From Syntrophaceae bacterium (GTDB lineage Bacteria > Desulfobacterota > BSN033 > UBA1163), in contig JACAEX010000084.1 of NCBI GenBank assembly GCA_013388635.1, positions 1 to 64,000 of the forward strand: a DNA stretch of 64,000 bases, written 5' to 3'. The first letter of the stretch is position 1. Every line of letters begins with the position of its first letter. This document shows positions 48,034 to 61,404 of the stretch, piece by piece. Position numbers and translations under genes: made by a program. Below the pieces are notes generated by a model. The model did no database searches. It had not been told where the DNA came from and saw nothing but the letters and a program-made list of their open reading frames with translations.

Positions 48034-49263
48034 TTACGATTTTCCTCGAACCTTCTTGATCTCCTCGCAAGTGGGCATGATCTCTTTGCCAGGCACCGTG
48101 ACGATATCCGTCGAAATAATGAAATCATACTGGGGCACTTTTTTGGTCACACCTAAGAACATGGGAAGGACGGCCTGATGGTCGCAAGCTCGCATCTCCA
48201 CTTCGCCCACAGGGCTGTCGACTTTCATCCCTTCCATTGCTTTGATAAACTTCTCTCTATCGATGGCACCTGCCTTGATGAAGGACTTCGCAATGAGATG
48301 GGCCGTGACATAAGCATGGAAAGCCGGAAATCCAGGCGGATTCCCGTAAGCATCCTGGAAAGCCTTGACGAAGGCCCGATTGGCCGGGGTATCGGGATGA
48401 TAAAAATGATAGTCCATCGTCCCCATCACCCCCTCAGGGGCCTCCTTGCCTAACGGTTTGAGAACGGCATGATCGGTGGCGGTGTGAATCCAGATCGGGA
48501 TCCTTTCCGACATGCCGGTCGACTTGATCGCTTTGAGGGCATTGGTCATGCTCGCACCGCCTGTGGCAAAAATAACAGCATCCGGTTTCGCAGACGTGAT
48601 CGCCGTGATATAGGGGATCAGGTCGGGCTCCCCTACCTTCCACCATGACTGCCCGATCAGTTCAACCTTCGGCTTGAGCGCCTTCAAATTCCGCCAGGCC
48701 GCATCCGCGATGGCATGCCCATACTCGTAATCATCACCTGCGATCCAGTATTTCACATAGGGCTTCTTGCTTAAGGCCACGCCCCCTGCCTTGCCAGCCA
48801 TATAGGTATTCTCGCTGGTGCAAAAAACATAACGATGCCCCTTCTCTCCGGTTATCTTTTCGCTCTTCGATATCCAGACGATAAAAGGTATCTTCTCTCC
48901 CTTCACATAATCCGATACGGCCAAGGAGACAGCGCTATTGATCGTCCCTACGAGGAGGTCTACCTTCTCCATCATGACCAGCTCTTTCGCCATACTGAGG
49001 CCGATATCCACCTTGAATTTGTCGTCCCTCGTGGTAAATTCAATCTTGGCTCCCAATACCCCCTTCTTATTGATCTCGTTTAATGCGAGTTTGAAGCCAT
49101 TCAGCGCGTCATTTCCATAAACCGCAGGCGGTCCGCTGTAGGTATCGAGTATGCCAACCTTGATCGTGCGCTGGGCATTCACATGAACCGGCTGTAGGAG
49201 AAGCAATAAAGCCAGAAACGACACAGATAGGATAAGAACTTTCCTGACAATTCCTTTTCTCAT
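48034..49263 (-). CDS. Liv-type periplasmic binding protein 2 (system C)
   Basis: A 409-residue type I binding protein, tandem paralogue of the one at 46725. The signal peptide (MRKGIVRKVLILSVSFLALLLLLQ...) ends near VNAQ. RTIKVGILDTYSGPPAVYGNDA opens the mature protein. Differences near the ligand loops (for example WISKSEK for TFSKSEK, and MGTMDYHF for IGTSNYHF) suggest related but different ligands. ATG 49263 was chosen over the in-frame GTG 49272 because GGAGG is eight bases before it. It is the first gene of the importer C operon, behind a structured leader. Confidence 0.9.
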   Translation of the reverse strand: MRKGIVRKVLILSVSFLALLLLLQPVHVNAQRTIKVGILDTYSGPPAVYGNDALNGFKLALNEINKKGVLGAKIEFTTRDDKFKVDIGLSMAKELVMMEKVDLLVGTINSAVSLAVSDYVKGEKIPFIVWISKSEKITGEKGHRYVFCTSENTYMAGKAGGVALSKKPYVKYWIAGDDYEYGHAIADAAWRNLKALKPKVELIGQSWWKVGEPDLIPYITAITSAKPDAVIFATGGASMTNALKAIKSTGMSERIPIWIHTATDHAVLKPLGKEAPEGVMGTMDYHFYHPDTPANRAFVKAFQDAYGNPPGFPAFHAYVTAHLIAKSFIKAGAIDREKFIKAMEGMKVDSPVGEVEMRACDHQAVLPMFLGVTKKVPQYDFIISTDIVTVPGKEIMPTCEEIKKVRGKS

Positions 49264-49346
49264 GTCTCTCACCTCCAGAGTTATTTGAATTCAACAGGTT
49301 TGAGATTTTTGCCCGATCCCTCCTTTCTACAGTCTTGTTCCGCTTT

Positions 49347-49444
49347 ACCCCGTCACGCAGAAAGCCCCGTGATTTATCACGGGGATGAGTGTTTCATGTC
49401 CGAAGAAGAGCCCAGTGCCCCGCGTCTTAATGCGGGGACGGGGT
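49347..49444 (-). other. Structured leader: closed three-way-junction fold
   Basis: On the minus strand ACCCCGT (plus 49438-49444) pairs with ACGGGGT (plus 49347-49353), closing two hairpins: CCCCGC/GCGGGG (plus 49418-49423 with 49432-49437) and CCCCGTGA/TCACGGGG with TAAA loop (plus 49365-49384). A 33-base linker joins them. It lies between the promoter and the first binding-protein gene. It could be a regulatory RNA or a relic of an IS200/IS605-type element end, which often carries such hairpins. Confidence 0.55.
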
Positions 49445-49458
49445 TTGCAGCTAACTGC

Positions 49459-49487
49459 TTTATATTCTTAAACCAAACAGATGTCAA
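49459..49487 (-). promoter_or_regulatory. Promoter of Liv importer C operon
   Basis: The minus strand reads TTGACA (plus 49482-49487), 17 bases, TATAAA (plus 49459-49464). The -35 box overlaps the last codons of the SDR gene. The predicted leader is about 190 nt. Confidence 0.75.
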
Positions 49488-50290
49488 CTCCCTTTTTTCT
49501 TCCTCATCTCAGCAATCAGATCGATCAACCCGGTCGGGTGGTAGCCCATCATCCCGCCGTCGGCAATGATCGTCGTCCCGTTGATATAGCTGGAATCGTC
49601 GGAGGCTAAAAACAGGGCGACCCTCACAATCTCCTCTGGATTTCCAAGCCTTTTCAGGGGGACCTGCTGGGTCAATCCAGAAAGAAGGATCTCTTTGTTG
49701 AGGATGGGCGTGTTCATACCAGCAGCGATGAACCCGGGGGCGATGGCATTGACCAGGATGTTGTACCTGCTCCATTCATAAGCCAGGATTCGAGTCAACG
49801 TCATCACCCCAGCCTTGCTGACACAGTAGGGTAAGAAACCCTGCTCTCCAAGGATTCCAGCCGTGGAGGAGATATTGATGATCTTTCCGCCGCCCTGCTT
49901 CATCATCTCTTTGCCCACGGCCTGACAGCAGAGAAAGACCCCTTTTAAATTGACATTCATCACCTGATCCCAGCCTTCCTCTTTGATCCTCTCCGCCTCC
50001 AAGATGAAGGGATTCACCCCGGCATTGTTCACTAAAATATCAACCCTTCCAAATACGCCGACCGCCTCATCGACCATCCTGTTGACGTCTTGCAAGGAAG
50101 AGACATCCGCTCCGATTGCCAGTGAGCGCACCCCGAGCCCCTCTATTTCATTGGCCACGGTCTTTGCCTGCTCGATATTTCGACCGTTGATGATCACATC
50201 CGCACCCTCCCTGGCAAACCCAAGAGCAAATTCTTTACCAATCCCCCTCGTCGACCCAGTGATCAGAGCCACCTTGCCTTTCAGTTTCAT
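49484..50290 (-). CDS. Short-chain dehydrogenase/reductase (FabG-like)
   Basis: A 268-residue classical SDR. The cofactor motif is TGSTRGIGKEFA (about 12-23). NNAGV, the catalytic serine in NISSTAG, and YCVSKAG (Tyr and Lys) follow. The ending INGTTIIADGGMMGYHP is family-typical. RN after the second strand (INGRN) suggests NADP preference. GGGAGGG precedes the ATG. It sits upstream of importer C, whose promoter overlaps its 3' end. It is likely a 3-hydroxyacyl or alcohol dehydrogenase; the substrate is unknown. Confidence 0.92.
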   Translation of the reverse strand: MKLKGKVALITGSTRGIGKEFALGFAREGADVIINGRNIEQAKTVANEIEGLGVRSLAIGADVSSLQDVNRMVDEAVGVFGRVDILVNNAGVNPFILEAERIKEEGWDQVMNVNLKGVFLCCQAVGKEMMKQGGGKIINISSTAGILGEQGFLPYCVSKAGVMTLTRILAYEWSRYNILVNAIAPGFIAAGMNTPILNKEILLSGLTQQVPLKRLGNPEEIVRVALFLASDDSSYINGTTIIADGGMMGYHPTGLIDLIAEMRKKKGS

Positions 50291-50308: not shown

Positions 50309-50893
50309 TCAACCCTGTAGGGAACGCAACCATGCGTTCCCTACGTTCTTTCCAATTATCTCCCCGTAATAATCCACGCAATTCTTGTGCGCACAACAAC
50401 CTTTTCTGTTTTCAATATCTAATTCCCATTTCAAGGGATTATTTACAATGTATTCTCTAAGATTGTCGAGCGATCTATCATTTCGTATCACATGATCGTA
50501 GAAGGATTTTTGCCAATGGAATTTTTTATTCCCCGTCATTTCAGCGTTTATTCTTCTCGACGAAAATGTTTTAAATCCTCGTATAATTTCCGACAGGTCA
50601 TGTGTAGGGAACGGTTTCAAACCGTTCCCTACAGTTTTTTCGCTACGAATCACGATTATTCCATGAACGTGATTTGGCACGATAACAAATGAATCCAGTG
50701 AACAATTCAAATAGTGCTTCGGCAAATCAGACCAACAATTCCTGGCTACCTCTCCATAGGTATTCAAAACCATTTCTCCATTTTCTATCTTCCCAAACCA
50801 CTCTTCTCTACTCTTGGTACAAATGGTTACAAAATAATACCCGCTCTGGGAGTAATCATAGCCCTTCAATCTCGTCGATCTTCTCTTTTTCAT
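50309..50893 (-). CDS. REP-associated tyrosine transposase (RAYT, IS200-like Y1)
   Basis: A 194-residue Y1 single-strand transposase. The HUH motif is PNHVHGI (His75, His77) and the likely catalytic tyrosine is Tyr132 in KSFYDHVIRN. The N-terminal GYDYSQSGYYFVTICT is family-typical. Two REP-like palindromes fall inside the coding sequence. One encodes TVGNGLKPFPTHD in the middle of the protein and one the C-terminal VGNAWLRSLQG. RAYT proteins are thought to mobilise REP hairpins. The frame is intact, so it may still be active. It ends 18 bp upstream of the SDR start. Confidence 0.92.
   Translation of the reverse strand: MKKRRSTRLKGYDYSQSGYYFVTICTKSREEWFGKIENGEMVLNTYGEVARNCWSDLPKHYLNCSLDSFVIVPNHVHGIIVIRSEKTVGNGLKPFPTHDLSEIIRGFKTFSSRRINAEMTGNKKFHWQKSFYDHVIRNDRSLDNLREYIVNNPLKWELDIENRKGCCAHKNCVDYYGEIIGKNVGNAWLRSLQG
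50317..50344. repeat. REP palindrome GTAGGGAACGCA...TGCGTTCCCTAC
   Basis: 12-bp perfect arms with a four-base centre (ACCA), covering the 3' end of the transposase gene. Confidence 0.85.
50603..50633. repeat. REP palindrome TGTAGGGAACGGTTT...AAACCGTTCCCTACA
   Basis: 15-bp perfect arms around a single central C, wholly inside the transposase coding sequence. The outer 10 bp match the palindrome at 50317-50344. Confidence 0.88.
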
Positions 50894-60616: not shown

Positions 60617-60703
60617 TGGTGCCGAGGGCGGGACTCGAACCCGCACAGTCTCTCGACCACGAGATCCTAAGTCTCGCGCGTATTCCAATTTCGCCACCCC
60701 GGC
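60617..60703 (-). tRNA. tRNA-Leu (anticodon TAG)
   Basis: An 87-nt class II tRNA with long variable arm. Acceptor GCCGGGG/CCTCGGC, anticodon stem CGAGA/TCTCG with loop CTTAGGA giving TAG, T-arm GGGTTCGAGTCCC, encoded CCA (plus TGG 60617-60619). Confidence 0.95.
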
Positions 60704-60721
60704 CCCTAAACAGCAAAAATG

Positions 60722-60835
60722 GTCTCTGGGCTACGGTTGCGAAGCCCGTTTAGTTCAGGGTCCTTCGGTTACGTGAAATTCTTAAGATGAATAACATGAC
60801 CGGATGACGATACGGGCCTCTTTACCCTTACCTTT
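60722..60835. repeat. Palindromic repeat family C (copy 4)
   Basis: GGGCTACGGTTGCGAAGCCCG at the left and GACGATACGGGCCTCTTTACC at the right, with an internal TTCGGTTACGTG. It lies between tRNA-Leu and tRNA-Lys. Confidence 0.7.
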
Positions 60836-60860
60836 CGCACGACACCTTTTTGTAAACTAT

Positions 60861-60936
60861 TGGTGAGCCGTGCAGGAATCGAACCTGCAACCTACTGATT
60901 AAGAGTCAGTTGCTCTACCGATTGAGCTAACGGCTC
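60861..60936 (-). tRNA. tRNA-Lys (anticodon CTT)
   Basis: Acceptor GAGCCGT/ACGGCTC, anticodon stem ACTGA/TCAGT with loop CTCTTAA giving CTT, T-arm GGTTCGATTCC, encoded CCA. Confidence 0.95.
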
Positions 60937-60942
60937 ATGATC

Positions 60943-61055
60943 AAAGATTCATTGCAAAATGAACAATTAGCAATGATCAATTAGCAATTTAGATCCAAAG
61001 AAACCAACCCCAATACTGCTAAATTTGCATTGCTAATTTTGCAATTTGCATTGTT
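60943..61055. repeat. Family B repeat (GCAAATTGCAAAATTA type), copy 2
   Basis: CATTGCAAAATGAACAATTAGC and GCTAATTTTGCAATTTGCAATTG-like arms flank a unique centre. It matches the repeat at 38278. Confidence 0.65.
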
Positions 61056-61063
61056 CCAGGCCG

Positions 61064-61140
<77 letters not shown>

Positions 61141-61142
61141 CT

Positions 61143-61220
61143 TGGGGTGAGTGAAGGGACTCGAACCCTCGCCCACTGGGGCCACAACCCAGTGCTCTAT
61201 CCAACTGAGCTACACTCACC
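61143..61220 (-). tRNA. tRNA-His (anticodon GTG)
   Basis: Acceptor GTGAGTG/CACTCAC with encoded G-1 facing C73, as required for histidyl-tRNA synthetase. Anticodon stem CTGGG/CCCAG with loop TTGTGGC giving GTG. CCA is encoded. Confidence 0.95.
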
Positions 61221-61221
61221 A

Positions 61222-61312
61222 TCAAATAAATTCCAATTAGCTAATTCTAAATAACCAAATTATTTTTGAAATTTCGGTCATTGAAATTTTGGTTATTTTA
61301 ACTAAAAGGGCA
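61222..61312. repeat. AT-rich inverted repeat, family A variant
   Basis: AATAACCAAATTATTTTTGAAATTTCGG and CATTGAAATTTTGGTTATTTT form imperfect arms, between tRNA-His and tRNA-Arg(TCT). Confidence 0.55.
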
Positions 61313-61327
61313 ATGCCTTTTTTCTTC

Positions 61328-61404
61328 TGGCGCGCCTGAGAGGATTCGAACCTCCGACCCACGGATTAGAAGTCCGTAGCTCTATCCAGCTGAGCTACAG
61401 GCGC
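61328..61404 (-). tRNA. tRNA-Arg (anticodon TCT)
   Basis: Acceptor GCGCCTG/CAGGCGC, anticodon stem ACGGA/TCCGT with loop CTTCTAA giving TCT, T-arm GGTTCGAATCC, encoded CCA. It is first in the five-tRNA cluster. Confidence 0.95.

Follow-up and report, generated by a model that had tools for sequence, protein, structure and literature searches.

Small transposase-free elements and IS200/IS605 transposons

Transposons of the IS200/IS605 family, such as the IS608 and ISDra2 types, carry subterminal hairpins at both ends and are transposed as single-stranded DNA by a Y1 enzyme, as described in one report (PMC6006769). The PATEs (palindrome-associated transposable elements) of Haloquadratum walsbyi lack a transposase, have near-terminal palindromes like those of IS605-type transposons and also occur as 52-bp forms that contain only the termini. 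A short target oligonucleotide marks their 5' border, other small elements invade them, and by definition they have neither terminal inverted repeats nor a target duplication (PMC3119063). REP and REPIN sequences are short, dispersed palindromic units with a conserved structure, whose mobility is probably provided in trans by a Y1 transposase, the RAYT (TnpA-REP); terminal inverted repeats on either side of RAYT genes are described as well (PMC3733652). In Borrelia, free-standing IS605-specific stem-loops are transcribed beside cellular genes, at the 3' ends of plasmid lipoprotein genes (PMC2775950). Among the search listings consulted, no description of such elements in the bacterial group considered here turned up.

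The locus described here lies in a window of 64,000 nt, which is the whole stretch of DNA analysed (contig JACAEX010000084.1 of a Syntrophaceae bacterium). With a probability of roughly 0.86, the RNA-like fold at this locus is an approximately 100-bp non-autonomous mobile element of the IS200/IS605 type (HUH/Y1), which consists of end hairpins without a gene and was inserted at TTTAC behind an existing promoter. What is observed is a dispersed family of copies, one exact empty site, empty syntenic leaders, similarity to the left end of IS200 and a conserved terminal structure.

The element resembles PATEs in being too short for a transposase gene, in its near-terminal palindromes, in the target oligonucleotide at its 5' border, in its core-deleted short copies (a 50-bp form in L007, which retains the outer parts only, compares with the 52-bp PATE forms) and in being invaded by other small elements. 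It differs in being closed by an 8-bp terminal inverted repeat, which is longer in relatives, in its host, a Thermodesulfobacteriota/Syntrophaceae-type bacterium and not an archaeon, and in its full copies of only about 100 bp. Its terminal inverted repeats conflict with the definition of PATEs, and for this reason it is not filed as one. Subterminal hairpins at both ends, a TTTAC border and a left-end module common to the IS200-type elements of three genomes (G004, G040 and G089) are shared with IS200/IS605 transposons, but the element contains no internal tnpA or tnpB, its ends are only about 33 nt apart and terminal inverted repeats are present. Like REP and REPIN sequences, it is a short palindromic unit that is dispersed, conserved in structure and probably mobilised in trans by a Y1 transposase, but it has no GTAG or CGTC tag and stands beside the RAYT genes of its own genome by chance distance only. 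With the Borrelia stem-loops it shares free-standing IS605-type hairpins transcribed beside a cellular gene; those stem-loops lie at the 3' ends of genes, and here both ends form one complete element within a 5' leader.

Structure of the element in the importer leader

The element is located within the 5' leader of a minus-strand importer operon. In the direction of transcription, a short-chain dehydrogenase (SDR) gene (49484-50290) is followed by a promoter-like site, the fold (49444 to 49347) and the first binding-protein gene, which starts at about 49263. The features are:

49344-49448, plus strand (left to right end): whole mini-element with its two border pentamers; covariance-model match at 49344-49446, borders checked
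49344-49348, plus strand: left border TTTAC, a target-type pentamer
49347-49354, no strand assigned: terminal inverted repeat or closing helix, arm 1
49365-49384, plus strand: left-end hairpin CCCCGTGATTTATCACGGGG with the flanks CAGAAAG and ATGA, resembling an IS200 left end
49385-49417, no strand assigned: linker of 33 nt separating the two hairpins, poorly conserved from copy to copy
49418-49437, plus strand: right-end hairpin CCCCGC...GCGGGG, GCCCCGCGTCTTAATGCGGGG, similar by eye to the hairpins 3' of tnpA in L156 and L157
49437-49444, no strand assigned: terminal inverted repeat or closing helix, arm 2
49444-49448, plus strand: right border TTTGC, one change from TTTAC
49459-49487, minus strand: promoter-like site TTGACA-N17-TATAAA, older than the insertion, with a similar site in 4 of 4 element-free syntenic leaders
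48034-49263, minus strand: gene for the substrate-binding protein of the importer (Pfam Peripla_BP_6), whose leader holds the element

The preliminary description had pointed to a closing helix, two GC-rich hairpins and a 33-nt linker at this place, and all of these are present. The 8-bp closing helix (ACCCCGTC/GACGGGGT) pairs 49437-49444 exactly with 49347-49354 and encloses both hairpins (49347-49444). The first is an exact 20-nt hairpin, CCCCGTGAT-AA-ATCACGGGG (49365-49384), for which the chance expectation in the window is 0 matches, and the second, CCCCGC...GCGGGG, is found at about 49418-49437. On the plus strand, the window copy reads TTTAC-CCCGTCACGCAGAAAG-hairpin-ATGAGTG-linker-GCCCCGCG..GCGGGG-ACGGGG-TTTGC.

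The transcript strand folds with a minimum free energy of -44.8 kcal/mol; shuffled sequences average -33.1 (z -3.30), and 1 of 200 folds as well. The opposite strand reaches -45.4 (z -3.31, again with 1 of 200 shuffles as good), and the two strands are thus nearly equal. In the minimum free energy structure of the transcript strand, part of the linker is mispaired, while the centroid structure shows the closing helix together with the two GC-rich hairpins and, within the linker, a single stem of two pairs. No Rfam family reached its gathering score over the fold stretch.

The position of the fold directly downstream of the dehydrogenase gene would suit a chance pair of GC-rich hairpins, or a terminator of that gene. 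This explanation is scarcely credible in view of the z score of -3.3, the many homologous copies and the exact empty site described below; moreover, no terminator-like site was called there, and a promoter-like site lies upstream of the hairpins.

A dispersed family of copies

A nucleotide search of the element's own genome (G000) revealed related copies on other contigs, with full-length ones in L002, L003 and L004, and shortened copies as well. Among 99 relatives, nucleotide matches were obtained in 5 genomes, the own genome counted, and all of them belong to one GTDB-style family. The covariance search with this fold proposed in the preliminary description was run with a model, R1, built from five full copies and comprising 102 positions. 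R1 yielded 15 matches in the own genome and matched 14 of 17 genomes of the family at E<=0.01, although the E-values are rough, many matches are weak and the weaker ones are looser relatives. At the level of the phylum, 11 of 118 genomes were matched at E<=1e-4 under stricter filters. Many of the weaker R1 matches represent looser subfamilies with the same design and different stem sequences. The genes alongside seven full copies differ for each copy. The core pattern occurred in genome contigs only of G008 (JASEHH010000004.1) and G015 (JAGXSW010000060.1), in a search that may not have included the window's own genome, and gave 0 matches in viral contigs.

With a looser pattern, nine stretches with free-standing left-end-type hairpin modules and TTTAC-like borders were retrieved from viral contigs (IMG/VR, L140-L148), four of which are near-identical. 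At the six distinct stretches that were examined by eye, no transposase gene was recognised beside the modules. On contig C37 of the own genome, one full copy (L002:1501-1604, G000:C37:6830) forms the end of an 81-aa open reading frame without a Pfam match, perhaps a truncated gene. On the same contig (L025:3690-3880), IS200-like end hairpins, AGAATGCCACCC..GGATGAAT and GATGCCCC..GGGG, are separated by about 160 bp with no gene between them; this pair is probably another core-deleted element.

Filled and empty sites

An orthologous importer gene with the same dehydrogenase upstream is present in four genomes (G002, G007, G009 and G011), and the element is absent from the importer leader in 4 of 4. 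A promoter-like site of the TTGAC...TATAA type, with spacers of 17-20 nt, is found in all four of these element-free leaders. Two further loci (L037 and L038) were excluded from the comparison on account of their different upstream genes. In G007, a looser relative of the element occurs elsewhere, following the binding-protein gene at a distance of about 1 kb.

One site is exact, and other sites are inexact. In G015, the L031 copy is arranged as GTCTGA-GTAAA-element-GTAAA-GGATGG, while the corresponding sequence in G008 reads GTCTGA-GTAAA-GGATGG, and G006 and G010 are likewise empty. GTAAA is TTTAC on the other strand, and a 5-nt repeat thus flanks the insertion. This repeat could be the target plus the right-end border or, equally, a target duplication produced by another type of transposase.

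A second filled/empty pair involves a copy (L027:1501-1602, G008:C174) that lies in frame inside an open reading frame for an ArsA-type ATPase, to which it adds 114 nt or 38 codons. The frame encodes 358 aa in G008, with the copy, versus 314 aa in G015, without it, and where they were compared the two are 96% identical; Pfam ArsA matches the G008 frame in two separate stretches. This site is less exact because 12-15 extra bases lie outside the TTTAC borders and G015 lacks about six further codons there, and the inferred empty site contains no TTTAC. The in-frame copy is reminiscent of the coding palindromic elements that reportedly occur in Rickettsia.

These comparisons bear on the idea, put forward in the preliminary description, that the fold is a cis-regulatory RNA, i.e. 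a riboswitch or protein-binding leader that evolved for the branched-chain-type importer. Its position directly behind a promoter-like site and ahead of the first importer gene would suit such a role, but the element is missing from 4 of 4 syntenic leaders, and full-length copies adjoin unrelated genes or, in one case, lie inside a gene.

Covariation and the nature of the hairpins

Among the five closest full-length copies, which form the window's own subfamily, compensatory changes were found in 0 of 21 pairs and 17 of 105 cells are broken, in a test of low power. In the wider group of 43 distinct rows, 18 of 21 pairs show compensatory changes on both sides and 90.2% of cells pair (91.8% in the closing helix or terminal inverted repeat), counts that lean towards structure because the alignment was fitted to the model. 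The covariation score of this group exceeds every shuffle and every slide. G-U pairs account for only 23 of about 752 paired cells. The alignment comprises 44 rows less one duplicate (L027 is the same place as L107), and loci with nested insertions were mostly excluded from it.

Absence of covariation had been named beforehand as an observation that would speak against an RNA. Such absence holds among the close copies and fails in the wider group, whose strong covariation can come from single-stranded DNA hairpins as well as from RNA. Taken alone, the covariation of the wider group would suggest an RNA, and it cuts against a simple dismissal of that possibility. It also fits the recognition of DNA hairpins, and perfect palindromes renewed by mobility make a DNA hairpin at least as good a fit as an RNA. 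The fold that is better than shuffles and the wide-group covariation would speak for a cis-regulatory RNA, but the five closest copies without compensatory change, the equal folding of both strands, the scarcity of G-U pairs and the lack of an Rfam match argue against it. Together with the empty leaders and the unrelated neighbours of other copies, these observations render a regulatory RNA evolved for the importer very improbable. The locus serves as a warning that a strong fold, a promoter context and group-wide covariation can come from DNA-hairpin transposons.

IS200-type ends and borders

One end of the element (TTTAC ... AGAAAG-hairpin-ATGAATGC) corresponds to the left end of IS200 elements, which is located just upstream of tnpA. 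The left-end module, GAA..hairpin..TGAA, was sought by a position-free scan on both strands of 87 Y1/IS200 loci (274,514 bases). Four occurrences were found at three distinct places (in G004, G040 and G089), each of them preceding an IS200-like tnpA by about 80-130 nt on its coding strand, and the transposase genes beside the module belong to Pfam Y1_Tnp. R1 also hits the G089 IS200 element in its left-end region (L156:1933-2017, E 6.4e-7) and, weakly, the same region of the G004 element (E 0.0056). By eye, the hairpins 3' of tnpA in L156 and L157 (ATGCCCC-hairpin-GGGG...TTTAC/TTCAC) resemble the other end of the element.

The target of IS608 is TTAC. Of 56 copies examined in the present family, 44 have TTTAC as their left border and 22 as their right border, fractions that lean upward because the 56 rows were mostly chosen by a model that includes the borders. 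L193, which is the same place as L086, was excluded from this count.

Because of the left-end module match, the tnpA-side hairpins and the TTTAC borders, the element is read as the fused ends of a gene-less IS200/IS605-type transposon. Left-end and right-end hairpins would have been joined with no gene between them, and, by analogy with the established mechanism of IS200/IS605 transposons, a Y1 transposase supplied in trans would act on these hairpins and on the borders (TTTAC) via the single-strand route. The captured end of an IS200/IS605-type element had been considered as an alternative to RNA from the start; the type assignment is supported, but the locus appears to hold a complete mini-element with both hairpins and borders, not a single end. 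A testable substrate for single-strand transposition in trans is offered by the exact empty site together with the left-end module held in common with IS200-type elements.

Candidate mobilising enzymes

The element's own genome contains nine Y1 genes that are RAYT-like in length. TnpB (PF07282) was not found in this genome, and on this ground a TnpB guide RNA was rejected as an explanation of the fold. A canonical IS200 tnpA above the curated family cut-off was likewise not detected in it, the best E-value being 3.0e-4. Since only RAYT-like Y1 genes and no IS200 tnpA over the cut-off are present, the element may be mobilised by a RAYT or by an IS200 tnpA that has since been lost.

The preliminary description had asked whether copies sit next to tnpA or tnpB elsewhere. 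For the left-end module, this is the case upstream of tnpA at the three places mentioned, but no matching copy adjoins the nine Y1 genes of the own genome except that of the window, at a distance of 0.9 kb. Over 37 Y1 loci, R1 recovered the window copy and otherwise weak matches only, and no match was obtained in 20 further stretches around Y1 genes of G000, G008 and G015, some of which overlap the earlier loci. These results disfavour a reading of the element as a RAYT flank.

A broader version of this idea holds that the element is a REP/REPIN-type or terminal-inverted-repeat-type repeat moved by a RAYT and not a remnant of an IS200-type transposon. It draws on the nine RAYT-like genes in a genome without an IS200 tnpA over the cut-off, on the terminal inverted repeats, which are also described for RAYT genes (PMC3733652), and on a RAYT-like gene in G008 (L099) that is preceded, at a distance of about 120 nt, by a looser relative of the element. 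Such an origin is nevertheless unlikely: the foot of the hairpin carries no GTAG/GTGG or CGTC tag, copies start with TTTAC-CCCG, and the borders and the left-end module match IS200-type elements. In addition, RAYT loci gave 0 module matches among the 87 Y1/IS200 loci scanned, and the 20 stretches covering further Y1 loci of G000, G008 and G015 were free of R1 matches.

Possible consequences for the importer mRNA

The promoter-like site noted in the preliminary description, TTGACA-N17-TATAAA, was recovered at 49487-49459. It is not listed by a simple promoter scan because the rule of that scan requires T at the last position. Its -35 hexamer overlaps the stop codon of the upstream dehydrogenase gene, and the transcription start predicted from it lies at most about 10 nt from the element. 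According to the preferred reading, a gene-less IS200/IS605-type element would have been inserted at TTTAC just downstream of this existing promoter, so that it would be transcribed as the first part of the importer leader. Given the predicted start, the element would form the beginning of the mRNA and precede the start codon by about 80 nt. Stable stem-loops at the 5' end are able to delay the decay of an mRNA, and a side effect of the element on the importer mRNA is therefore plausible; any such effect would be a by-product of the insertion. The candidate RNA switch would then become a clear case of a mini-transposon turned mRNA leader.

It is also conceivable, in addition to a mobile origin, that this copy was kept since its stable 5'-terminal stem-loop protects or tunes the importer mRNA. 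The closeness of the predicted start to the element, about 10 nt at most, is consistent with such exaptation, as is the retention of every pair of all three helices in the window copy while sister copies have decayed. A precedent may be found in Borrelia, where IS605-type stem-loops linked to lipoprotein genes were argued to be kept at the RNA level (PMC2775950). In no same-genus relative was the insertion shared, however, and retention is indistinguishable from recent insertion, which leaves exaptation fairly unlikely.

Nested hairpins and neighbouring sequences

Single hairpins of about 22-31 nt are nested in several copies of the element, with flanking repeats of 4-7 nt, and often occupy a TTCA adjoining the left-end hairpin or the loop of that hairpin. 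The loci concerned are L028:963-1091, L031:1377-1535, L086, L108, L203, L209, L211 and L212. An abutting repeat of at least 4 nt accompanies 4 of 27 element hairpins versus 5 of 220 control hairpins, an excess that is suggestive only, because one insertion accounts for two of the four. It is a quite doubtful proposition that this bacterial family hosts a hierarchy, in which two-hairpin elements of about 100 bp are invaded by mobile single-strand hairpins of about 16-31 nt and the mRNA of an importer has captured one two-hairpin copy as its 5' end. If true, the nested hairpins would rank with the smallest DNA units known to transpose.

The window also contains a RAYT-like Y1 gene (50309-50893, Pfam Y1_Tnp). 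A GTAG-type palindrome, GTAGGGAACGG..CCGTTCCCTAC, is placed in frame within this open reading frame, and another is present at its 3' end (50316-50345 and 50603-50633). A RAYT also lies upstream of the dehydrogenase gene in G007, and there the corresponding position is taken by another palindrome, GTAGGGGCAATTCATGAATTGCCCCTAC. Further along the window, five tRNA genes are clustered on the minus strand (60620-61404).
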